A stretch of 64,000 nt of DNA from Bacteroidales bacterium. Its GTDB lineage: Bacteria > Bacteroidota > Bacteroidia > Bacteroidales > Paludibacteraceae. The notes under the pieces were generated by a model. The model was not told where the DNA came from, did no database searches, and saw only the letters and a program-made list of their open reading frames with translations. The DNA is taken from NCBI GenBank assembly GCA_022783865.1, contig JALFYY010000013.1:1-64000 (forward strand). Direction: 5' to 3'. A program made the translations under genes and the position numbers. This document shows positions 5,285-50,613 of this stretch, piece after piece. How positions within the stretch are numbered: the stretch's first letter is position 1; the number at the start of each line of letters is the position of its first letter.

Positions 5285-5425
5285 AGCGATTCGTTTAAAC
5301 CTGACATGCAGGTGAAAACAGCAAGATTTTACAGTGTTTTACCGGACAGTAATATTAGGATAGACACGATACAAAACCGCAAAATTTGATGTCGCTATGC
5401 TGTTGCTTTGAATTTTGAACAAATA

Positions 5426-5457
5426 TTTGTGTGAGTCAGAAACTTGTAGTACCTTTG
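5426..5457 (+). promoter_or_regulatory. Bacteroidota-type promoter upstream of the riboswitch (TTTG 5426-5429, TACCTTTG 5450-5457)
   Basis: 20-nt spacer TGTGAGTCAGAAACTTGTAG closely matches the spacers at 162 and 13958. Confidence 0.75.
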
Positions 5458-5485
5458 TCGCGTCATTGGCGAATGATACAAAATG

Positions 5486-5685
5486 TAGGTGTCGGTTCGT
5501 GTGCGCAGGTACACGATGAAAAGAGAATCAGGTGAAAGTCCTGAACAGACCCGCTGCTGTAAGTTTCTTGCGGTTGCACAGTTGCAACCCGAATGCCGGT
5601 ACAAGCAAAGCCATTGCGGAAACATCAGTCCGTGAGAAGGCGTACCAAGCAGGAAACAAGTCAGAAGAACTGCCGATACTATAGG
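5486..5685 (+). ncRNA. cobalamin riboswitch (boundaries approximate)
   Basis: GAATCAGGTGAAAGTCCTGAACAGACCCGCTGCTGTAA, CATCAGTCCGTGAGAAGG and AAGTCAGAAGAACTGCC match the conserved B12 element blocks in order. Confidence 0.85.
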
Positions 5686-5804
5686 TTCAGATATGCTTTC
5701 GAGGAAAAAGAGCAGAACCATGGCGGCAGGCATACAGCAATGCATACCCGTATCGAAAATGATACTAGGCAGCAGATAGCAAAGGCAATGCGACATGATA
5801 TTTA

Positions 5805-5855
5805 GGCACATCTTTTCCTGAAGCAGAAGGCTACGGAAAGATGTGTCTTCTGTTT
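5805..5855 (+). terminator. terminator-like hairpin between the riboswitch and the first ORF
   Basis: GGCACATCTTTTCC (5805-5818) pairs with GGAAAGATGTGTC (5835-5847), followed by a T-rich tract. Confidence 0.6.
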
Positions 5856-5916
5856 CTTGACGGGTGTTTTTTCTCGTCGGCTGTTTGACGAATAACACGC
5901 AAACAGTGATTATACA

Positions 5917-7077
5917 ATGCTAATACGTACATTCCTTTTAGGGCTTTGCCTGTCGGTGGTGATACAGACTGCTGCTGCAAATCCATGTGCAGCAACGGTT
6001 TATACCTATCAGCCGGCACCCGGGCAATTCGTAAATTTGTTGCCTGCCTACGCAGATGGCGATACTTCGGATGATATGTGCCGCAAGGTGGAAGCGGCAT
6101 GGCTACAGCAAACTCCCGTTACCTTAGGCGCATGGGGCGGCTATGTGGTATTCGGCTTCGACCATATGGTGGCGAATGTACCCGATGAATACGATTTGTG
6201 TATTTTGGGTAACGCTTCAGTTGCCAAGCAAAGTGCCGACGGACGTTATTGGGGTGCGGCAGAACCCGGTAGCGTAATGGTCAGTTACGATGCCAATGGC
6301 AACGGGCTGCCCGACGACGAGTGGTATCACTTGGCAGGTAGTGAACACGGCAATACCGCCACTGTGCACGATTATGTCTGTACCTATCATCGCCCTGCTG
6401 CCGCCCATCAGCCGGTGGCGGGTGTTTCATGGAAATATCTTACTGATTCGCTCTATATACGCTGGACGGATAACCAAGGCGGGGCAGGGTATGTTTCCAA
6501 AAACAGTTTCCATAAGCAGGACTACTGGCCCTTGTGGGTGAGTGCGGACGAGTTGGCGTTTTCGGGAGTGCGGTTGCCCGACAATGTGGAAATGCTTGGT
6601 ACCGCCGGCACCAACAATATTCTTTGGTGCTACGATTACGGTTATACCGATGTGTTTGCCAACAACGACGAGCGTAATCGCATGAAGATAGATTGGGCGG
6701 TGGACGCACAAGGTAATTCGGTCTTTTTGCCGGGAATACATTTTGTAAAGGTATATACTGCCGTCAATCAATATGCAGGTTGGACGGGCGAGGTATCTAC
6801 CGAAGTAGCCGGTGCCTTCGATTTGCACGCCACCTCCACTACGGCATGTGAACATACCGCCTCGCAACCGTCAGTCACCCTGTTATCCAATCCTGTTCGG
6901 GAAACGATGGTGATAACATCGTCAACGACACAACATGCGGCTGTGTACAACTTGCATGGGCATCTTCTGTTCAATATCAATCTGTCTGCCGGCACAAACC
7001 GTATCTCATGCTCTTTGCCCCAATGCATCTATCTTCTGCAATACGATGGCGGAGCTTTGCGATTCTTGAAACAATAA
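5917..7077 (+). CDS. secreted surface protein with T9SS-type C-terminal sorting domain, cobalamin-riboswitch-controlled
   Basis: Signal peptide MLIRTFLLGLCLSVVIQTAAA; C-terminus VTLLSNPVRETMVI...AAVYNLHGHLLFNINLSAGTN...YLLQYDGGALRFLKQ. Confidence 0.8.
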   Translation: MLIRTFLLGLCLSVVIQTAAANPCAATVYTYQPAPGQFVNLLPAYADGDTSDDMCRKVEAAWLQQTPVTLGAWGGYVVFGFDHMVANVPDEYDLCILGNASVAKQSADGRYWGAAEPGSVMVSYDANGNGLPDDEWYHLAGSEHGNTATVHDYVCTYHRPAAAHQPVAGVSWKYLTDSLYIRWTDNQGGAGYVSKNSFHKQDYWPLWVSADELAFSGVRLPDNVEMLGTAGTNNILWCYDYGYTDVFANNDERNRMKIDWAVDAQGNSVFLPGIHFVKVYTAVNQYAGWTGEVSTEVAGAFDLHATSTTACEHTASQPSVTLLSNPVRETMVITSSTTQHAAVYNLHGHLLFNINLSAGTNRISCSLPQCIYLLQYDGGALRFLKQ

Positions 7078-7096
7078 CAAACAAATTCATATTATC

Positions 7097-10000
7097 ATGA
7101 ACCGGAAATTACGTAACTTTTATTTATTGGCATGCTTGATAATGACACTGCCTTGTCTGCATGCCGAAGACCTGCTGATGCTGCAATTCGGCAAACAGGT
7201 TCTGACTGTCAGTAAGGATAATCCGCTCACTTTCTACGACATGAAAGGTACTGAGGACATCCCTTCCAACAACAACAGTAACTCTTTTTCTACAGCTATT
7301 TTTAAGCCTGCAGAAGAAGGGAATTCCATTGTCCTTAGTTTTGAGACAGTCGATGTGAGGAACGACGGGGCGTCTTATCCTGCTTACCTCAACATCTATA
7401 ATGGCGTGTTCGACACCACATCGGTGACGTATCCTGCTACGGTAGGAGATGTTTCAACCACAAAGTTCCCGACTACCGATGCTTTGCTTGCCTCGTTGGA
7501 CGGGACGTATTCCGATCTGACATACGTTTCTTCCGATGCAACGGGGGCGCTTTCGGTGTGCTACCATTACAAATATGCCAAGCGATGTGGGGGATGGAAA
7601 GCAGTAGTGTCATCCGTAAAGGTGGAAGATATGGCAATCAAGACCGCCACAGCCGACTATTCGCAAGTGAATGGCAATATCTACGCCGGCAAGCAGAATG
7701 TAGCTTTGGCAGGCCTGACTATTCAGACCGAAGGTCTTGGCAATCCCGATGCGCTTACTGGTGTAAGTTTTTCTCTTTCCTGTACGAACGTCATCGATCC
7801 CGCTACGCTGAAACTGTATGCAGGTAATGCGGCAAGCACAGCATCGCTCACAGCTATTGATGCTTCCGTCACCGGGACGAACGGCACATATAGCTTTACA
7901 CTCTCCAAGCCATTGGCGGCAGGCGATAATCAGTTCTGCATAGGTGCAGATGTCCTTTCTTCTGCTCCGTTTGATGCCACAGTGTCTCTTAATATTACCG
8001 GCATCACAACACAGAAAGGATACAGTGGTTTTCAAACCGTAACGCCTGCTTTGTTCACCGTGGCACGCATGGTGCTGATTGCCAATACGCCTGCCACTTA
8101 TACGGTGGAGCAGGAACTGGGTTTCTACGACGATGGCGGTCCCGAGGGTAAGATTAGTAATAACTTCGAAGGCACTGTCACTTTCATGCCTGCTCACGAA
8201 GGGATGAAAGTGCAAATCGACTTTTCCGATATCAGTATCTTTTACACCTCTTCTGCGGTCAGCATCGGCAATCAGGATCTGCTCAAGATATACAATGGCA
8301 CCACTGCCGCTGCCGAAAATCTGCTTTATAGTGTAGAAACCGACAAACTGCCGTCACTGACAGTAAAGAGTACTTCTGCCGACGGTGCTCTGACGGTATA
8401 TATGCGCAGCAAGACGCCTTCTTCCTATTATATAGGTACCGGCTTTGAGGCGAAAGTGTCCGAGTTTGTGCCGGAAGCAATGACGGTGGGTGCCCTGACA
8501 GTGGAGAAGACCGAGAGCCGCACTTTGTCTGCTGGCGAGAAGAACAGTCCTTTGCTCGGTTTCAACATTCAAACCGTCAATACGGAACCTGCCTTGTCGC
8601 CTGCTTCGTTTGTGTTTGTTACGAACGGTACGTTCCCGCAGATAGCAACGGCGGAAGTCTATTACACAAAACGTTCCGATGTTTTCTCCACCGCCGTCTT
8701 GGCAGGTAGTGCAACCGTAACCGGCAACGGCGTTGTCATTGCTGTTACCGATGCAATAGCGTTGCAAGAAGGCGACAACTATTTCTGGTTGGCGTGCGAC
8801 ATTGCCACTGATGCGCCTAACGGTGCAAAGGTGGAGGCGACTTTGTCAAAGGTGACTTTCCGCAACGGTACGGCGCAGGAGAATATCACTACTCCGGCAG
8901 GAGATTTCGAGATTTATAATATCGTCCGTTCCTCGTGTGGCTCGCAGGAGATAACCGTTTACGGCGATTGGGCATATACGCATACGCAGAGCTCGTATGG
9001 CAGTAATTATGCTGCAGAGAACTGCAATCAGACGGTTGTTTTCCGTCCTGCTGTGGAAGGCAATCTGATACAAATCGATTATGCGGATTTTGCCGTATAT
9101 TATTCTTCGTCAGCTTACTATGGCGTGCGTGCCAAATACGAGATTTACAACGGTTCCGGTACTGCCGGAACCAAACTGTGGGAAGTTACTGCCGACAACT
9201 GCAATGTAGGTCCCGGCAGGGTGCGTTCTTCGGCGGAGGACGGCGCACTGACGGTGGTATTCAATCCGAATACTGCCTCGTCCTATACAGACAAAGGCTG
9301 GCATGCTACTGTTTCCCAATATACACCGTTCGATATGAAAGTGACGGAAATCACAGTAGAGCAGGCTTCTGTCAAGTTGGTAAAACCCGGAGAGAAAGCG
9401 GCGGCAATACTTGCTTTCGACATACAAACCGAAGGCATGCTCAACGGATTGACACTGCAGGAAATTACGCTCGACTTGAAGGGTTCCGAAACCGATGTGG
9501 ACAGTGTGCTGCTTTTCCGTAATGGAGAAGAAATCAGTCGTGTACCGGCAGCCTCTACAGTTACATTGACGAGCGATGTTCTCTTGCAGGAGTACAGCAA
9601 TCGTTTCACGGTTCTTTTCAACCTCAAAGCCGATGCCGCGATAGGTCATTCGGTGGATGCTGCCTTGACGCATGTGAAAGTGACGGACCGGGTCTTGCAA
9701 CCTGTCAACGGTGATCCCGACGGTGCCCGGCCCGTCAAGAACGTCTATCTTTTGCAGGCGGGCGACAACGGGCAACTGAATGTAGGAACCAACTCTTTGA
9801 TGTTCTACGACGACGGAGGCGAAGATGCCGACTATTCTTCCGGTTTCGAGGGATGGGTCACTTTTGTACCTACGGTGGAGAACAGTGCCATTGAGTTGGT
9901 GTTCAACGATTTCAATTGTGCCTACGGATGCTCGTTCTATCTCTACTATGCCGATGGCAGACAGGAAAACTACGATGCAAGTTTCGGTTATTACGACAAA

Positions 10001-13000
10001 CCCGATGCCGGTGTCCCCCTTGTTTCCAAAGCCGGCAACGGTGCCCTTACCATCTATTTCAAGGCAGGTGGCTATTCGCAGATGGCAGGATGGCAGATTG
10101 AGGTACGTTGCCACGAACTGATGCCGCTGAAGATTGACAGTGTTGTTACTGCCGCCTTGGCGCCGGCGGTACAGACCATCGGTGCCGCTGACGTACAGCT
10201 GATGCAAGCCGCTGTCTATGTCTCGGGCGACCGTGGACCTTTGTCGCTGAATGCTTTCAATACCTCGTTGGAAGGTCCTGCTACTAATCTCCGTTGGTAT
10301 GCTGCCGGCCATTCGCCCGTCTTTACTTCCACCGAGCCTTTTGCAGCCCCTTATGCGCTGACAGAGAGTGGTGTGTGGTATTTCTATGCAGTGGCGGATG
10401 TTTCGCCCGAGGCGTCCGAAGGCGACAATATCACCTTCGCTTTGCAGACCGTTACGGTCGGAGAAGACAACATCGCCCCCTTGCAGACGGTGCAGACGGC
10501 TACCCGTATCGTGAGCGGTGTGCATGGCACTTTCGTTATCGGCAAGAGCGATGCTGCCGACTATCATACTTTGCAGAGTGCCGTCAACTCGTTGGCTATC
10601 GGCATTGACGGTCCTGTTACGTTCCTCTTGGAGTCGGGACGCTACGAGGAGCAGGTGATAGTGCCTGTGCTCAAGGGTGTGTCCGAAACCAACAATGTCC
10701 TTTTCCGCTCGCTTACGGGTAATCGCGACGATGTGGAAATCGTTTACAACGGTTCGTTGGGAGACAATACCGGTGTTTGGACTTTCGATGGCGCCGATTG
10801 GGTGACCTTGGAAGGATTGAGTTTTACGAGCACTTATACGCTTGTCAACCAAGCTTCGGTCGTATGTCTTCGTAACGCTTCCGAGCATATCACTCTCCGC
10901 AATTGCTATATCCACGCTGCCTCTTTCACCGAACCTGCCGCCAGTCTCAATCTGCTCCGGCTCTATGTTGTGTCCGGCTCGCAAGCTTTCAACCATCATT
11001 TCACGTTGCAGGATTCCCGCTTGGAGGGCGGCTATATTGCTTGCTACCTCACCGGACACGCGGCAGCGGCCGATCCTTGTACCGAGGGCTTGAACATTGT
11101 GGGGAATACCTTCGAGGGGCAAGGTGCGAAGATGATTTATTCCGATGGTTTCCGCCGTCCGCTCATTGCCGGCAATACAATGACTGCCACGGTACGCAAA
11201 TCCGGTTTCTATGCTATCGACAATATCAACTTTGCCGATACGCTCACGCTGACCGGCAACACTGTTACCCTCACGCTGGGAGGCAATTTCGGAGCATCGG
11301 GCATCTATTTGCGGCCTAATGGCTCGCAGGACAAAACGGCGCTCTTCGATATGTACAACAATGCCGTCAGCATCATTGCCGACAACGACTATGCCTGCAA
11401 TGGTCTCCATCTGAACAACAATCTCCCGCTTGTCCGCATCGCCTACAACACGTTCCGTGTACAGAGCAATGCCGACTACTCTGCACCTGTTTACTTCTAT
11501 TCCAAGCCGGCGGAAGGCTCTTCGCTGACCAACAATATCCTGCTTTCTGCCGTCAAAGGGCAGGCGTTGCGCTATCGCAGTGCCTCCTATGTAGGCAATG
11601 TCACCTTCCGGCACAATTGTCTGTACACTCCCGAAGGAAATAGTTTTGCCGGCACGGTGGCGGAAACTTTCGATGCGTGGAAAACGCTGGTGGGTGCCAC
11701 CGATGAGCAGGGTAATATCAGCCGGAATGTCGATTTCGTCAGTGCCGCTATGCTTATGCCCCGTACCGGAGACGGCTTGCTCAGTGCCCAACCGCTCGAC
11801 TATGTCACTACCGATATCACGGGCAGGCAGCGTGCCGCACAACCTACTGTCGGCGCCTACGAATACGACCCCGAACTCACCCGTATGCCGCTCCTCCTCG
11901 AAGGTTATCCTTCCGTTGCCAACGTCACGCACAATGCCGCCGCTGTCTTGCTGCGGGCATCTGCCAACGGTACGGCATACCTCTTGGTGCGTACTGCCGC
12001 AGAAGCGGCACCCGACAACCAGACTGTTGTCACTGAGGGTACCCGTGTCGAACTCCCCGCCGACAGAGAAGTATCCTCTTCGCTGACCGGTTTGCAGGAG
12101 CACACCGCTTATACGGTTTATGTGTTGCTTGCCAACCTTTTGGGCGAACCTGCACAAGAGGCACTCACTTGCATGTTCACCACCGAATGGGAACGTCGCG
12201 ATATTGTTATCAACGAAATCCTGCCGCAGACCGTCAATGCGGATACACCTGTCCGCTTTGTCGCCCGACTTGCTGCCACTTATCCGCAAGCCGAGCCTTA
12301 TCGTTTTGTCTGGACCGATTTCCGGGGCGACACACTCTCTACCGATAGCGTACTCACTCTCACGGCTGACCGTACACTTGCGCTTAAAGTGAGTGTCACC
12401 GATGCTTTCGGAACGCGTGCAGCGGCAGGAACACACTTGCAGGTATTGCAGCAGGAGGCGCAGACCGCTACTTTCGAGGAATATCGTTTGCCCGCCGAAT
12501 CAGTCCTTACCGACGATGAAACATGGACCGATTGGGCGTTTAACCCGATCTATAGCGGCACTTATGCTTTCGATGCTTACCTGCAGCGCGATTGGGGAAT
12601 GTGCACCGGCTTTGCTGTTTCCAACGAGACTTCTACTCTGTACGAAAACTACTCCCATCAGTTCCGTTCCGCGGCAGGTGGGGCCTATGCCGGCAGTAAC
12701 TATGCCGTCTTCTTTCCCGTCTGGGGCGAAACGGCGGCTGTCCGTCCCACTCATACCGGCCAACCTGCTACCGTGCGTGGTTTCTATCTCACCAACACTG
12801 CCTGGGTGGTCGATGCTGTACGCAACGGCGATGGAATGACGGCAGGAGGGTTTGAGCAGGGCGATTGGTTCAAACTTATTGTAGAGGGCTGGAATGGAAC
12901 GGAAAAAGCCGGTACGGTCGAAGTCTTTCTTGCCGACTACCGTTCGGAGAATGCTGCCGAACATACTCTCCTCGAACAATGGCAATGGGTGGATCTCTCG

Positions 13001-13390
13001 CCGTTGGGAGCAGTGTCTGAGATTACTTTCTCTTTCGACGGTACACGTCGCAACGCCGGCGGTCTTACTACGCCTACCTATTTCTGTATGGACAATTTCA
13101 ACGGCGTGCATGATGACATCCATACAGGTGAAGTCAATCATTGGAGCAACGATGCGGAAACTTTTATGGTGCGCACATATCCCAATCCTGTTACTGACTA
13201 TTTGCACATTGTTCTGCCACAGGCAGAAGGCACGATGGAGATATATACTACTGACGGTATTTGCGTAATGCGTCAAGACTTGACGTCTGAACAGATTGTG
13301 CTCAACGTAAGTAACTGGGATACCGGTATTTATATCTTGCGTATTTGTTCGGAAGATGCTGTGGCAACACAACGAATCTTCAAACGCTGA
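7097..13390 (+). CDS. 2097-aa multidomain T9SS-sorted surface protein (CUB-like/BNR_assoc_N-like repeats, beta-helix, FN3/PKD-like, DUF4465-like)
   Basis: Repeated FYDDGG...F.P...LKIYNG...GALTV and LQEGDNYFWLACD-type blocks; VSNETSTLYENYSHQF...GFYLTNTAWV...FCMDNFNG; C-terminal TYPNPVTDYLHI...GIYILRI...QRIFKR. Confidence 0.85.
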   Translation: MNRKLRNFYLLACLIMTLPCLHAEDLLMLQFGKQVLTVSKDNPLTFYDMKGTEDIPSNNNSNSFSTAIFKPAEEGNSIVLSFETVDVRNDGASYPAYLNIYNGVFDTTSVTYPATVGDVSTTKFPTTDALLASLDGTYSDLTYVSSDATGALSVCYHYKYAKRCGGWKAVVSSVKVEDMAIKTATADYSQVNGNIYAGKQNVALAGLTIQTEGLGNPDALTGVSFSLSCTNVIDPATLKLYAGNAASTASLTAIDASVTGTNGTYSFTLSKPLAAGDNQFCIGADVLSSAPFDATVSLNITGITTQKGYSGFQTVTPALFTVARMVLIANTPATYTVEQELGFYDDGGPEGKISNNFEGTVTFMPAHEGMKVQIDFSDISIFYTSSAVSIGNQDLLKIYNGTTAAAENLLYSVETDKLPSLTVKSTSADGALTVYMRSKTPSSYYIGTGFEAKVSEFVPEAMTVGALTVEKTESRTLSAGEKNSPLLGFNIQTVNTEPALSPASFVFVTNGTFPQIATAEVYYTKRSDVFSTAVLAGSATVTGNGVVIAVTDAIALQEGDNYFWLACDIATDAPNGAKVEATLSKVTFRNGTAQENITTPAGDFEIYNIVRSSCGSQEITVYGDWAYTHTQSSYGSNYAAENCNQTVVFRPAVEGNLIQIDYADFAVYYSSSAYYGVRAKYEIYNGSGTAGTKLWEVTADNCNVGPGRVRSSAEDGALTVVFNPNTASSYTDKGWHATVSQYTPFDMKVTEITVEQASVKLVKPGEKAAAILAFDIQTEGMLNGLTLQEITLDLKGSETDVDSVLLFRNGEEISRVPAASTVTLTSDVLLQEYSNRFTVLFNLKADAAIGHSVDAALTHVKVTDRVLQPVNGDPDGARPVKNVYLLQAGDNGQLNVGTNSLMFYDDGGEDADYSSGFEGWVTFVPTVENSAIELVFNDFNCAYGCSFYLYYADGRQENYDASFGYYDKPDAGVPLVSKAGNGALTIYFKAGGYSQMAGWQIEVRCHELMPLKIDSVVTAALAPAVQTIGAADVQLMQAAVYVSGDRGPLSLNAFNTSLEGPATNLRWYAAGHSPVFTSTEPFAAPYALTESGVWYFYAVADVSPEASEGDNITFALQTVTVGEDNIAPLQTVQTATRIVSGVHGTFVIGKSDAADYHTLQSAVNSLAIGIDGPVTFLLESGRYEEQVIVPVLKGVSETNNVLFRSLTGNRDDVEIVYNGSLGDNTGVWTFDGADWVTLEGLSFTSTYTLVNQASVVCLRNASEHITLRNCYIHAASFTEPAASLNLLRLYVVSGSQAFNHHFTLQDSRLEGGYIACYLTGHAAAADPCTEGLNIVGNTFEGQGAKMIYSDGFRRPLIAGNTMTATVRKSGFYAIDNINFADTLTLTGNTVTLTLGGNFGASGIYLRPNGSQDKTALFDMYNNAVSIIADNDYACNGLHLNNNLPLVRIAYNTFRVQSNADYSAPVYFYSKPAEGSSLTNNILLSAVKGQALRYRSASYVGNVTFRHNCLYTPEGNSFAGTVAETFDAWKTLVGATDEQGNISRNVDFVSAAMLMPRTGDGLLSAQPLDYVTTDITGRQRAAQPTVGAYEYDPELTRMPLLLEGYPSVANVTHNAAAVLLRASANGTAYLLVRTAAEAAPDNQTVVTEGTRVELPADREVSSSLTGLQEHTAYTVYVLLANLLGEPAQEALTCMFTTEWERRDIVINEILPQTVNADTPVRFVARLAATYPQAEPYRFVWTDFRGDTLSTDSVLTLTADRTLALKVSVTDAFGTRAAAGTHLQVLQQEAQTATFEEYRLPAESVLTDDETWTDWAFNPIYSGTYAFDAYLQRDWGMCTGFAVSNETSTLYENYSHQFRSAAGGAYAGSNYAVFFPVWGETAAVRPTHTGQPATVRGFYLTNTAWVVDAVRNGDGMTAGGFEQGDWFKLIVEGWNGTEKAGTVEVFLADYRSENAAEHTLLEQWQWVDLSPLGAVSEITFSFDGTRRNAGGLTTPTYFCMDNFNGVHDDIHTGEVNHWSNDAETFMVRTYPNPVTDYLHIVLPQAEGTMEIYTTDGICVMRQDLTSEQIVLNVSNWDTGIYILRICSEDAVATQRIFKR

Positions 13391-13612
13391 CAAACCCGAA
13401 TCGTCACAGACAGAGGCTACAGCGGTATCCCTGTATTAACACCTTGTTTTCTGCCAATTACCAAGTGTTTGCTGTGGCGTTTTCAGAGAGGTGTGTCCGA
13501 TGGGGCACACCTCTTTCTGTTTATTTCCTTTCCCCTTTTCCATCCTGCTGCCTGTCCTTTCTTCTCTTCACGCCTTTTCCTCATCTTTGTCTTTGTTCTA
13601 TCTTCCTACCAT

Positions 13613-13679
13613 ATTCCTTTTTCAGATGTCGGCTTGATACCGGCTGAATCACCCACTAATCACCCACTAATCACCCACT
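13613..13679 (+). repeat. 67-bp dispersed repeat ending in 3 x 11-nt units AATCACCCACT (13647..13679)
   Basis: 63 of 67 bases match 63301..63367 by hand alignment. Confidence 0.9.
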
Positions 13680-13957
13680 TATGGTTGCTTGTGGCTATTT
13701 AGACCATTAGAACAACCTAAGAGATGAATAGAGAGCAGGGCAGGTATGATGTTGGAATACAGAGTATTGCCTTCCGCTGTCATATGGTTAACGTAAATTC
13801 ATCAAACTCAGGTTAAATAGGGCTTGCCCGATAAATCGTAAATACTAATTTGTCTTTTGTTCATTGTCTTTGTCTTCGCTTCTTTGTCTAATTATAAAAT
13901 AGGTTGTAATAAATGTTTCTTGTCTGACAGCAATATTATAAATTGTCAATGAAAATA

Positions 13958-13989
13958 TTTGTGTATGTCAGAAAGTTGTTGTAATTTTG
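13958..13989 (+). promoter_or_regulatory. Bacteroidota-type promoter of the rpsF operon (TTTG 13958-13961, TAATTTTG 13982-13989)
   Basis: 20-nt spacer TGTATGTCAGAAAGTTGTTG nearly identical to the acpP spacer. Confidence 0.75.
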
Positions 13990-13993
13990 CAAA

Positions 13994-14053
13994 CCATTTC
14001 GGCGTGAAATGCGAATGCAGGTTCACCTGCAGGAGGATAGGGCGTCGGTGTGG
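13994..14053 (+). promoter_or_regulatory. structured 5' leader of the rpsF operon, candidate r-protein leader
   Basis: Outer stem CCATTTCGGCG/CGTCGGTGTGG with GU pairs; inner hairpin TGCAGG-TTCA-CCTGCA (14016..14031). Confidence 0.5.
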
Positions 14054-14090
14054 AGAATAATATTATTAACAAAATTAACTAATTTACTCT

Positions 14091-14438
14091 ATGTTAAATC
14101 ATTACGAGGCCACTTTCATCTTGACTCCCGTTTTGTCTGACCAACAGATGAAGGAAGTGGTTGACAAGTTTGAGGGTCTGCTCAAAGACAACGGAGCCAG
14201 CATTCTCAATCGTGAGGAATGGGGTTTGAAGAAACTCGCATATCCTATCAAGGGCAAAACAACGGGATTCTATGCCCTGCTGCAATTTGATGTTGAACCG
14301 TCATTCATCGCTACACTTGAGACCGAGTTCCGTCGTGACGAACGGGTTATCCGTTTCCTCACTTTCGCACTCGACAAGTACGCTTTCGAATACGCTGAAA
14401 AACGTCGCAATGTTAACTTAAATAATAAGGAGGCTTAA
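14091..14438 (+). CDS. rpsF: 30S ribosomal protein S6
   Basis: [27 protein letters not shown]; followed by rpsR and rplI. Confidence 0.97.
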
Positions 14439-14440
14439 TT

Positions 14441-14704
14441 ATGGCAGAACAAGAAATCCGTTATCTCACTCCGCAAAAACGTGAGAACCAGAAGAAGAAA
14501 TACTGCCGTTTCAAAAAGAGCGGTATCAAGTATATCGACTACAAAGACCCTGAGTTCTTGAAGAAGTTCTTGAACGAGCAAGGCAAAATATTGCCCCGTC
14601 GTCTTACCGGTACTTCGTTGAAATACCAACGCAAAGTATCTCAAGCTGTTAAAAGAGCACGCCATTTGGCATTGCTCCCATACGTAACCGATATGATGAA
14701 ATAA
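14441..14704 (+). CDS. rpsR: 30S ribosomal protein S18
   Basis: [62 protein letters not shown]. Confidence 0.97.
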
Positions 14705-14715
14705 GGAGGATAACT

Positions 14716-15159
14716 ATGGAAGTAATTTTGATTGAAAATGTAGTTAACTTGGGCTACAAAGACGATATCGTAAAAGTACGCGACGGATACGGACGTAACT
14801 ACCTTATCCCTAACCGCTTGGCTGTGATTGCCAACGAGTCGAACTTGAAAGTGCTGGCTGAGAACCAGAAACAACGTGCTCACAAGTTGGAGAAAATCAA
14901 AAACGATGCACTTGCTTTGGCAGAACAAATCAATGCTGCTGAACTCACTATCGGTGTAAAAGCAAGCGAAAACGGCAAGATTTTCGGTACTGTTACTACC
15001 GCTCAGTTGGCTGACGCATTGGCTGCCAAGGGTATTACGGTTGACCGCAAGACGATTGTTATTGCAGAGCCTATCAAAGAGTTGGGCGAATATACAGCAG
15101 TAGCCCGCTTGCACAAAGAGGTTAGTGCCGACATTAAGTTTACCGTTGTTGTTGAATAA
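14716..15159 (+). CDS. rplI: 50S ribosomal protein L9
   Basis: MEVILIENVVNLGYKDDIVKVRDGYGRNYLIPNRLAV. Confidence 0.97.
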   Translation: MEVILIENVVNLGYKDDIVKVRDGYGRNYLIPNRLAVIANESNLKVLAENQKQRAHKLEKIKNDALALAEQINAAELTIGVKASENGKIFGTVTTAQLADALAAKGITVDRKTIVIAEPIKELGEYTAVARLHKEVSADIKFTVVVE

Positions 15160-15178
15160 TTAAGAAAGGACACGCATT

Positions 15179-15433
15179 ATGAAAAACGGAATTCATCCAG
15201 ATAACTACCGTGTTGTAGTATTCAAAGACATGTCTAACGGAGAACAGTTCTTCAGCCGTTCTACCGCCGCAACGAAAGACACTATTGAAATCGACGGTAC
15301 CACCTATCCATTGATTAAGTTGGAAATCTCCAGTTCGTCTCACCCATTCTATACGGGTAACTCGAAACTGGTTGATACTGCCGGTCGTGTTGACAAGTTT
15401 ATGCAACGTTACGGCAACCGTAAACATAAATAA
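15179..15433 (+). CDS. rpmE: 50S ribosomal protein L31, type B
   Basis: [24 protein letters not shown]...[20 protein letters not shown]; lacks the zinc-binding cysteines. Confidence 0.95.
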
Positions 15434-15498
15434 TCGGGCTTGCCGCTGTTTTGTGGGACACGCTTCTCTGACAAGACAGCTACGGCTTGTAATAAATA

Positions 15499-15528
15499 GA
15501 ATAAGGGCGGAGCAATCCGCCCTTATTC
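15499..15528 (+). terminator. hairpin terminator after rpmE
   Basis: GAATAAGGGCGG-agcaat-CCGCCCTTATTC, 12-bp perfect stem. Confidence 0.7.
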
Positions 15529-15559
15529 TGTATCTAATCACTATCATATTCTATTTACC

Positions 15560-16309
15560 ATGAACCGCAATCTCTCTCTCTGGAAACAAACCGGCAAGAA
15601 TACGATTCTCTCTGTTCTGCTGTTTGCCGCCTTGTTCGGCTTGCTCTATTTAGTGGAGCACTTTTATCCTGAATTGCAACTCTTGCGCTTTTACGACGCT
15701 GCTTTTTGTGTGGGTATTCCGGCAAGTATAACCGGTGTAGCCTATGTGCTTTCCATCAAGAATCCTGAGAACTATACGGGTTTCTATGCGGGCATCGTTA
15801 TGTCGCTGTTGCTCTGCGTGCAGTTTTTCCTGCAAGGCAACTACGACCTCTGTCTGCTCTATATCGCCATCTTTGTGCCTTTCCAAATCAAATCGATTGT
15901 GCAATGGGTGAAACCGCATAGTGCCGACGCTCCTTTTGCTCCCGAGTTTTTGAGCAAGAAAGCCATGTGGATATCCGTTGCGGTATGCATGGCGGTTACT
16001 GTTCTCGATTATCTCTTTGCTACTTATGTCGTCCATTCCGACGGCTTGCTCCATAATTGGCTGTTGAAACTGATGGGCGCACTGATGATATCTTCGAGTG
16101 TGTTGGCAAATTTCTGGCTGATATACAAAAAGAACGATGCGTGGATTTATTGGGTAATCTACAGCCTTTCGGGCATCATCTTCTATGTGATATTGAATAA
16201 CGCCTTTAGTGTCGTACTCTTTGTTTTCTTTGCCGTTATCAACGGTATGGCAGGTATTGCATGGATACGCAATACGGATGAAGAACATATGGGATGGCTC
16301 AGACGATAA
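15560..16309 (+). CDS. PnuC-like nicotinamide riboside/mononucleotide transporter family membrane protein
   Basis: Seven to eight hydrophobic segments; YKKNDAWIYWVIYSLSGIIFYVI resembles the PnuC KxxExWxxW region. Confidence 0.55.
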   Translation: MNRNLSLWKQTGKNTILSVLLFAALFGLLYLVEHFYPELQLLRFYDAAFCVGIPASITGVAYVLSIKNPENYTGFYAGIVMSLLLCVQFFLQGNYDLCLLYIAIFVPFQIKSIVQWVKPHSADAPFAPEFLSKKAMWISVAVCMAVTVLDYLFATYVVHSDGLLHNWLLKLMGALMISSSVLANFWLIYKKNDAWIYWVIYSLSGIIFYVILNNAFSVVLFVFFAVINGMAGIAWIRNTDEEHMGWLRR

Positions 16310-49320: not shown

Positions 49321-50442
49321 CTATTTCAAGAACTCGTTAATATCTGTCGATAGCGTAACTTGATAGACATATTGCCCCCGTAGGTGTTGCGAGAAGGCAA
49401 AGCCCACACGGAACTGCTTTATCTTCACACCGGCACCCACTGCAAATCCGGCGAAAGAGCGTTGGTCCTGTATGGTCATTTCCATTCTCCGCCGATGGTT
49501 GTACGAAAGTGTCAGGTAGTATTTGTCGGTCTTCGGCACCAAATCGATAAAGAAGATGGTGTGGCGGAACATCATATCGTACCAAGCGATTGTGCCGTCG
49601 TCGGTTGCTGCACTTTTGTCGTTGAGTAACGTGCTGCCCGTCTTTTGGTTGGTGCTTTGGTAGCTCAACTGCCATCGCTGCATGTTGTGGATAGTCATAC
49701 CGATGCGGATAGGGGCATGGCGGAAGCGGTAGTTCAATCCTAATTGCAGATTGAGCGGCAGTGTCTCACGGTGTTGTCCGTTCTCGTCTGAATAGAAACC
49801 TTTGAGTTGCCAACCGATGTTCTGCAGCGATAAGCCCAATTGGAACGATTTGTCTTTGGTTTGGAAATGCCCGCCCACATCGGCTGCCAAAGCAAAACTA
49901 TAGTACGACTCATAGTGCGAATAGATGGGCTTGAGCGATACGCCCACCGAGAACATTTCACCCAACTGACGGGCATACATCAGGTTCACGAGTACATCGC
50001 GTGCTGAGAAACTGCCGCCTGTCAGGTTGCCGTATTCATCGGCGTATGGCATCTTGCCATAGTCTAAATAATGAATGGCAACGCCGAAATAGTTTGCCTT
50101 GTAGTTGTGACCGTAGAGGACAGAGCCGAGGTTGATGCCCTGCATATAGTAGGCATAGTTGAGTTGCAGTACCTTGTCGGTTTGTTCGTTAAGCAAGGCA
50201 GGATTGCTTAGCGACATACCCAAATCACCGTCTCTTACGCTCACATTTGTACCGCCGTACGAATTGAGCCGTGCCGTCATCGGGATATCCATAAAGGCAA
50301 AAACGCTGCTTCCCGTCTGCGCCTTTGCAGGAAACGCAAACAACACGTATAGTACAAGGACCAATATAGTTTTGACCTTCGTTAACTGCGTGTTAGTCGT
50401 TATAACTGCAGATGATGGGGATGCAAGATACGTTTTGCTCAT
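49321..50442 (-). CDS. porQ: type IX secretion system protein PorQ
   Basis: FAFMDIPMTARLNSYGGTNVSVRDGDLGMSLSNPALLNEQ...HYLDYGKMPYADEYGNLTGGSFSARDVLVNL; adjacent to cmk and ispH. Confidence 0.88.
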   Translation of the reverse strand: MSKTYLASPSSAVITTNTQLTKVKTILVLVLYVLFAFPAKAQTGSSVFAFMDIPMTARLNSYGGTNVSVRDGDLGMSLSNPALLNEQTDKVLQLNYAYYMQGINLGSVLYGHNYKANYFGVAIHYLDYGKMPYADEYGNLTGGSFSARDVLVNLMYARQLGEMFSVGVSLKPIYSHYESYYSFALAADVGGHFQTKDKSFQLGLSLQNIGWQLKGFYSDENGQHRETLPLNLQLGLNYRFRHAPIRIGMTIHNMQRWQLSYQSTNQKTGSTLLNDKSAATDDGTIAWYDMMFRHTIFFIDLVPKTDKYYLTLSYNHRRRMEMTIQDQRSFAGFAVGAGVKIKQFRVGFAFSQHLRGQYVYQVTLSTDINEFLK

Positions 50443-50613
50443 ATGTACAAACTTTACCGCTACAAAGATACTGCAAATTTCGCTTTCCTGCAAATAGGGC
50501 GAATTTTATCAAGGTACAATCGCCTCAGGTTGTTTTGTACTATGTCATCCTATACTTGCCGTTCGGTAAAATCCGGCTGTTTTTAGCCCCGTTTCGGGCT
50601 TGATTAAAACATC

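Follow-up and report, generated by a model that had tools for sequence, protein, structure and literature searches.

The accessory proteins that bind cobalamin (vitamin B12) for Bacteroidota are, as far as they have been studied, lipoproteins that reside on the outer membrane or on vesicles derived from it. In Bacteroides thetaiotaomicron, BtuH2 (BT_1956, 7BIZ) and the H-domain protein BtuG1 (BT_1490, 8BLW) are both lipoproteins, have PKD or beta-propeller domains at the N terminus and are encoded in riboswitch-linked btuB operons (PMC8941943, PMC10404256). BtuJ1 and BtuJ2, which are small lipoproteins, belong to the DUF4465 family (9FCT, 9QPM, 9I2L, 9HMU), for which B12 binding was reported in 2025-26 and of which eight divergent members all bind B12 (PMC13398666); within this family, sorting tails of the type IX secretion system (T9SS; IPR026444) were found on 229 of 824 proteins, mutually exclusive with lipoprotein signals (PMC12751083, 2025). 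Here, we describe a two-gene operon in a window of 64,000 nucleotides (contig JALFYY010000013.1, positions 1 to 64,000, hereafter C16) from the 1.92-Mb, 98.8% complete genome of a Bacteroidales bacterium of the family Paludibacteraceae (GCA_022783865.1). It shares its riboswitch class and accessory domains with the canonical Bacteroidota cobamide operons, which consist of a riboswitch, btuB, btuG and accessory genes, but it lacks both btuB and btuG and encodes only T9SS-tailed putative binders. We consider it quite likely that this is a btuB-less satellite operon for B12 capture, the T9SS-exported products of which pass their cargo to BtuB-BtuG.

The first gene (ORF1) encodes a BtuH-type protein. 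Residues 23 to 305 matched the BtuG1 H-domain (8blw_B) with an E value of 2.6e-71 and BtuH2 (7biz_A) with one of 2.4e-39, and an AlphaFold model based on 30 homologs (mean predicted local distance difference test score, 88) retrieved the same BtuH-type structures at Foldseek ranks 1 to 3 (E values, 7e-30 and 3e-24; identity to 8blw_B and 7biz_A, 46% and 31%, respectively). By sequence and modeled fold, this region is a BtuH domain, an identity not seen in a first-pass annotation of the window, and the case for a role in B12 biology is therefore stronger than that annotation had made it. A PKD or zinc-finger identity for ORF1 was ruled out, the zf-HC2 match being below its cut-off and the BtuH match overwhelming. 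With the contact residues of BtuH2 taken from PMC8941943 and the chain offset verified on the alignment, ORF1 was found to retain Gln333 (Q37), Asn399 (N99), His476 (H199) and Trp577 (W289), with Phe401 replaced by tyrosine (Y111). The nearest named homolog, from a Paludibacter metagenome-assembled genome, is 58% identical over the full length. While ORF1 shares its domain fold, the riboswitch link and part of the contact set with BtuH2 and BtuG1, it differs from them in having no lipobox (a signal peptide is present), no additional N-terminal domain, no btuB neighbor and a C-terminal T9SS tail; lipidation describes the BtuH proteins studied in B. thetaiotaomicron, not the BtuH domain itself.

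The second gene (ORF2) encodes a giant protein with a DUF4465 domain close to its C terminus. This domain scored 160.7 to 167.6 bits against PF14717 (cut-off, 25), and Foldseek matched the model of the C-terminal part to the B12-bound DUF4465 structures 9hmu, 9qpm and 9fct (TM-score on the target, ≤0.79). The HI-loop tyrosine typical of the family (Tyr245 in BtuJ1) is Y1995 of ORF2, within the motif TTPTYF. The DUF4465-type domain that the first-pass annotation had suspected is thus confirmed by profile and fold and very probably binds B12. Since the AlphaFold model of residues 1640 to 2097 was usable only from approximately residue 1795, the long N-terminal part is described here from Pfam matches (BNR_assoc_N, 71.4 bits, upstream of DUF4465) and from reading the sequence. 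Compared with BtuJ1 and BtuJ2, which share its domain, fold and HI-loop tyrosine, ORF2 is set apart by its 2097 residues, its long N-terminal extension and a tryptophan in place of Tyr146.

Like ORF1, ORF2 has no lipobox. Its tail scored above both cut-offs (TIGR04183, 39.3 to 44 bits against a cut-off of 23; PF18962, 39.7 bits) and, as modeled, matched the T9SS substrate tail in 8glk_D. In ORF1, residues 320 to 384 were modeled as a separate seven-stranded domain following a disordered linker, an arrangement known from T9SS type A (PMC10202324), and the tail reached 31.4 bits when scored with a profile compiled from 29 further tails that this genome encodes. A signal peptide combined with a seven-stranded C-terminal sorting domain also characterizes the type A cargo proteins RgpB and HBP35, from which ORF1 and ORF2 differ in being predicted to bind cobamides. 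The genome encodes Sov (2733.6 bits), PorV (480 bits), PorU (1077 bits) and PorQ, and approximately 35 of its sorting tails exceed the TIGR04183 cut-off. Among the relatives, Sov was present in 15 of the 16 genomes with a tailed locus, the exception (L079) having the weakest tail; a comparison of Sov presence and absence across 50 genomes was weakly informative, with Sov found in 42 of them and lipoprotein-type loci also occurring in Sov-positive genomes. Coincidence was ruled out as an explanation of the tails, which form separate domains, seldom accompany a lipobox and occur in a genome that encodes the T9SS.

Upstream of ORF1, the cobalamin riboswitch matched the RF00174 covariance model over its full length, with a score of 92.8 bits (gathering threshold, 31.5). 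Nine copies of the promoter pattern TTTG-N20-TAnnTTTG are present in the window, where 1.29 were expected; none of the shuffled sequences contained as many. Between aptamer and ORF1 lies a hairpin (5804 to 5848) with arms at 5804 to 5815 and 5837 to 5848 and a T-rich stretch on its 3' side. In a Paludibacter relative (L068) with the same riboswitch and gene pair (giant partner, 2183 amino acids), the arms are near-identical, whereas the leader sequence ahead of the hairpin has diverged; judging from this conservation, the hairpin is probably the expression platform and would act as a terminator. Because both genes share this leader and are separated by a gap of only 19 nucleotides, because a terminator with a 14-pair stem follows ORF2, and because the downstream rpsF-rpsR-rplI-type ribosomal genes (names read from the sequence) have a separate promoter at 13958, we regard the locus as a two-gene operon (Table 1). 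The first-pass annotation had called the promoter, the B12-riboswitch-like leader, the hairpin, two adjoining secreted open reading frames with T9SS-type tails and, elsewhere in the window, PorQ, and all of these withstood closer analysis; the riboswitch also supports the B12 control that it had suggested for the locus.

Table 1. Coordinates of the B12 operon and associated features, numbered within the 64,000-nucleotide window
Feature	Position	Strand	Basis
Bacteroidota-type promoter, TTTG-N20-TAnnTTTG	5426-5457	+	Pattern search with shuffles; both boxes also in L068
Cobalamin riboswitch aptamer	5476-5691	+	RF00174, 92.8 bits, E value 9.6e-22
Hairpin with T-rich tail, terminator-like, probable expression platform	5804-5857	+	Inverted repeat, minimum free energy fold, conservation in L068
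ORF1, 386 amino acids: signal peptide, BtuH-type domain (residues 23-305), T9SS type A-like tail (~320-386)	5917-7077	+	Structure-sequence matches, Foldseek, tail profiles
ORF2, 2097 amino acids: N-terminal CUB-like/BNR_assoc_N repeats, beta-helix-like region, DUF4465 (1832-2001), T9SS type A tail (2028-2096)	7097-13390	+	Pfam, TIGR04183, PDB DUF4465 structures
DUF4465 (BtuJ-type) predicted B12-binding domain of ORF2	12590-13099	+	PF14717; Foldseek 9hmu, 9qpm, 9fct
T9SS type A C-terminal sorting domain of ORF2	13178-13384	+	TIGR04183; fold match 8glk_D
Intrinsic terminator closing the two-gene operon	13485-13516	+	14-pair stem, T-rich tail
porQ, T9SS component, outside the operon	49324-50493	-	NF033711, 309.5 bits

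A genome-wide search for btuB, btuG and btuH recovered a canonical system elsewhere. The second cobalamin riboswitch of the genome (contig C19, 40870 to 41086) heads a btuB-btuG-btuH-DUF4465 operon, the btuB and btuG genes of which lie at positions 12650 to 15780 of the corresponding locus (L003). Its BtuB (13732 to 15780) is a TonB-dependent receptor with TIGR01779 as its best match, under the strict cut-off of that model; its BtuG is a DUF5074 beta-propeller lipoprotein, and its BtuH carries a lipobox (LLDSC) that was recognized by eye and not called by the regular expression in our script. Both BtuH and DUF4465 occur in exactly two copies in the genome, one per riboswitch operon. The first-pass annotation's statement that btuB is not adjacent held for the window, where a search of the open reading frames gave no btuB homolog; absence of BtuB from the organism, on the other hand, is ruled out by the receptor under the second riboswitch, and a btuB-less satellite is therefore the best description of the window's operon. 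Similarly, the suggestion that T9SS is used instead of lipoprotein export fits the two T9SS-tailed, B12-regulated proteins described here but not the other operon, with its lipoproteins BtuG and BtuH: rather than replacing the lipoprotein route throughout the organism, the T9SS pair is an addition to the standard btuB/btuG/btuH system. As for downstream steps, a single FecCD permease and a single periplasmic binding protein are plausible candidates for BtuC and BtuF, and methylmalonyl-CoA mutase (identity read from the sequence) was the only enzyme with a PF02310 B12 domain found in the genome. Finally, the DUF4465 protein of the canonical operon (302 amino acids; L003, 10454 to 11362) has no lipobox and a weak T9SS-like tail (18.9 bits); T9SS routing may touch that operon, too.

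In the mechanism that we favor, a fall in cellular cobalamin would cause the riboswitch to permit expression of ORF1 and ORF2. Their signal peptides would direct both proteins across the inner membrane and their C-terminal sorting domains would direct them through the T9SS across the outer membrane, where PorU would cleave off the sorting domain and the new C terminus would be joined to anionic lipopolysaccharide (A-LPS). Thus linked, each protein would have its B12 domain (BtuH in ORF1, DUF4465 in ORF2) beside the membrane anchor, with the N-terminal part of ORF2 pointing outward, a polarity opposite to that of the N-terminally lipidated BtuH and BtuJ. Both domains would bind cobamides and pass them to BtuB-BtuG of the second riboswitch operon, a hand-over proposed because of its analogy with the model in PMC10404256, and the acquired B12 would serve at least methylmalonyl-CoA mutase.

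The anchoring step has release into the medium as its main alternative: both proteins might be soluble and freed, acting on cobamides much as a hemophore acts on heme, or be shed on vesicles, to be recaptured at BtuBG. After cleavage by PorU, T9SS cargo may indeed be either anchored or released (PMC10202324), BtuJ and BtuH lipoproteins of B. thetaiotaomicron are abundant on vesicles (PMC12751083), and the absence of btuB from the satellite operon is as expected of a free-standing scavenger. Nevertheless, a protein as large and adhesin-like as ORF2 would be poorly suited to diffusing as a carrier, the genome encodes PorU and PorQ, which belong to the attachment complex, and no sequence rule separates released from anchored cargo; we consider release improbable. 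With approximately 1800 of its 2097 residues taken up by CUB-like, BNR_assoc_N and other non-B12 domains, and with giant DUF4465 proteins of many relatives varying in their N-terminal parts, ORF2 might instead chiefly be an adhesin or glycan binder with an incidental B12 domain, serving, for example, to keep cells close to B12-rich material or to bind haptocorrin, intrinsic factor or similar B12 carriers of the host. We give this idea little credence, as the riboswitch and the BtuH partner make B12 the main theme of the operon and as DUF4465 is the most widely shared part among the giants.

Several observations weigh against capture of B12 by T9SS-exported proteins. With TIGR04183, the ORF1 tail scored 20.4 bits, slightly below the curated cut-off of 23. 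The rarity of a lipobox beside a sorting tail speaks in favor of T9SS export: across 70 relatives, a lipobox was found in none of 11 tailed but in 8 of 11 untailed DUF4465 proteins (Fisher's exact test, p = 0.001), and in 1 of 12 tailed BtuH proteins but in 13 of 22 that end at the domain (p = 0.009). These tests, however, ignore shared ancestry and rely on a regular expression that misses some true lipoproteins. In the predicted pockets, the DE-helix tyrosine of BtuJ1 (Tyr146) is Trp1903 in ORF2, while Tyr510 and Trp511 of BtuH2 align with nonaromatic residues, and Leu578 with threonine, in ORF1; going by these substitutions, affinity or ligand preference may differ. Tryptophan at the Tyr146 position recurs in the other giant homologs and was observed in L068, L073, L075, L085 and 4jqr, and we take this position to be a contact residue rather than a family-defining one. 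That the domains no longer bind B12 and the operon is B12 regulated for another reason, as the changes at Tyr146, Tyr510 and Trp511 could indicate, appears highly improbable, given that most contact residues are retained, that binding is common to all eight divergent DUF4465 proteins of PMC13398666 and that the recurring tryptophan looks like a lineage feature.

All components of the proposed satellite system are known, and since DUF4465 proteins with T9SS tails have been counted before (PMC12751083), the T9SS idea is not wholly new. In the open-access literature that we searched, no paper joined type IX secretion with B12 binding, and neither a T9SS-sorted BtuH nor a btuB-less satellite operon with T9SS tails was found reported; a 2023 review of T9SS effectors (PMC10202324) mentions no vitamin or cobalamin cargo, and T9SS goes unmentioned in the BtuH paper. 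What is new is thus the putative role of BtuH as cargo of the T9SS, together with a riboswitch operon that lacks btuB and encodes solely T9SS-tailed putative binders beside a canonical operon; this extends, and does not overturn, the picture of B12 scavenging by Bacteroidales. If our interpretation is correct, competition for B12 in gut and rumen would include an additional T9SS route that lipoprotein-based surveys overlook, and the T9SS would gain a class of nutrient-capture cargo; it would also raise the question of whether such binders are cell anchored or are released and possibly shared. More speculatively, and in our estimation rather unlikely, the T9SS of Bacteroidales could add to B12 capture a further layer that does not depend on lipid anchors: btuB-less satellite operons under riboswitch control would export binders of the BtuH and DUF4465 types, at least some of them released as true extracellular cobamide carriers and later recovered via BtuBG by the cell or its neighbors.

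BtuH homologs were present in 90 of the 150 genomes sampled from the family. In 70 named loci, 56 BtuH genes, the majority, were located behind btuB or btuG, and 15 had neither gene within 3.5 kb upstream. Besides L068, six loci without btuB or btuG in that interval have a riboswitch directly 5' of BtuH (L072, L073, L087, L091, L092 and L098); in a further one, L069, the riboswitch is also directly 5' of BtuH, and the contig start is too near to judge btuB and btuG. No riboswitch reached the threshold in the scanned loci L093, L101, L111, L117 and L125.

Five relatives encode BtuH and DUF4465 in a single polypeptide of 587 to 785 amino acids (L073, 8929 to 11283; L082, 937 to 2820; L100, 8890 to 10773; L134, 7398 to 9281; L112, 8992 to 10752), with DUF4465 explicit in all except L082, whose length and tail match those of L100 and L134. 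The genes of L073, L082, L100 and L134 each follow a cobalamin riboswitch of their own, and that of L112 follows btuB-btuG; from their domain content, these fusions probably bring two different B12-binding sites together in each secreted protein. Giant DUF4465 proteins (1250 to 2380 amino acids) are recurrent in Bacteroidales (among others, L070, 1619 to 8752; L085, 10072 to 17061; L109, 12144 to 18260), the one in L085 having two DUF4465 domains. Other C termini were observed as well: in six loci (L103, L115, L119, L126, L128 and L129), BtuH ends neither in a T9SS tail nor carries a lipobox but has a dockerin-like pair of calcium-binding repeats (DVNGDGxVDVSDVTALINxIL), and many BtuH or DUF4465 proteins without a lipobox (including those of L054, L072, L073, L075, L087, L089, L096 and L110) have a tail of 40 to 60 amino acids with the pattern NGxxYIxRxGxxYxxxG. 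This tail, which falls outside the known sorting-domain models, is possibly a shortened T9SS signal.

Lastly, the promoter of the B12 operon has two close counterparts in the window. The sites ahead of acyl-carrier-protein/fabF genes (153 to 207), the B12 operon (5417 to 5471) and the rpsF-like ribosomal operon (13949 to 14003) share not only the boxes TTTG and TAnnTTTG but also the spacer GTCAGAAAsTTGTnGTA. With up to one mismatch allowed, this spacer-containing motif, a pattern drawn post hoc from the three sites themselves, occurs genome-wide at these sites only, all within 14 kb, and local copying of a promoter is a possible origin of the shared spacer.

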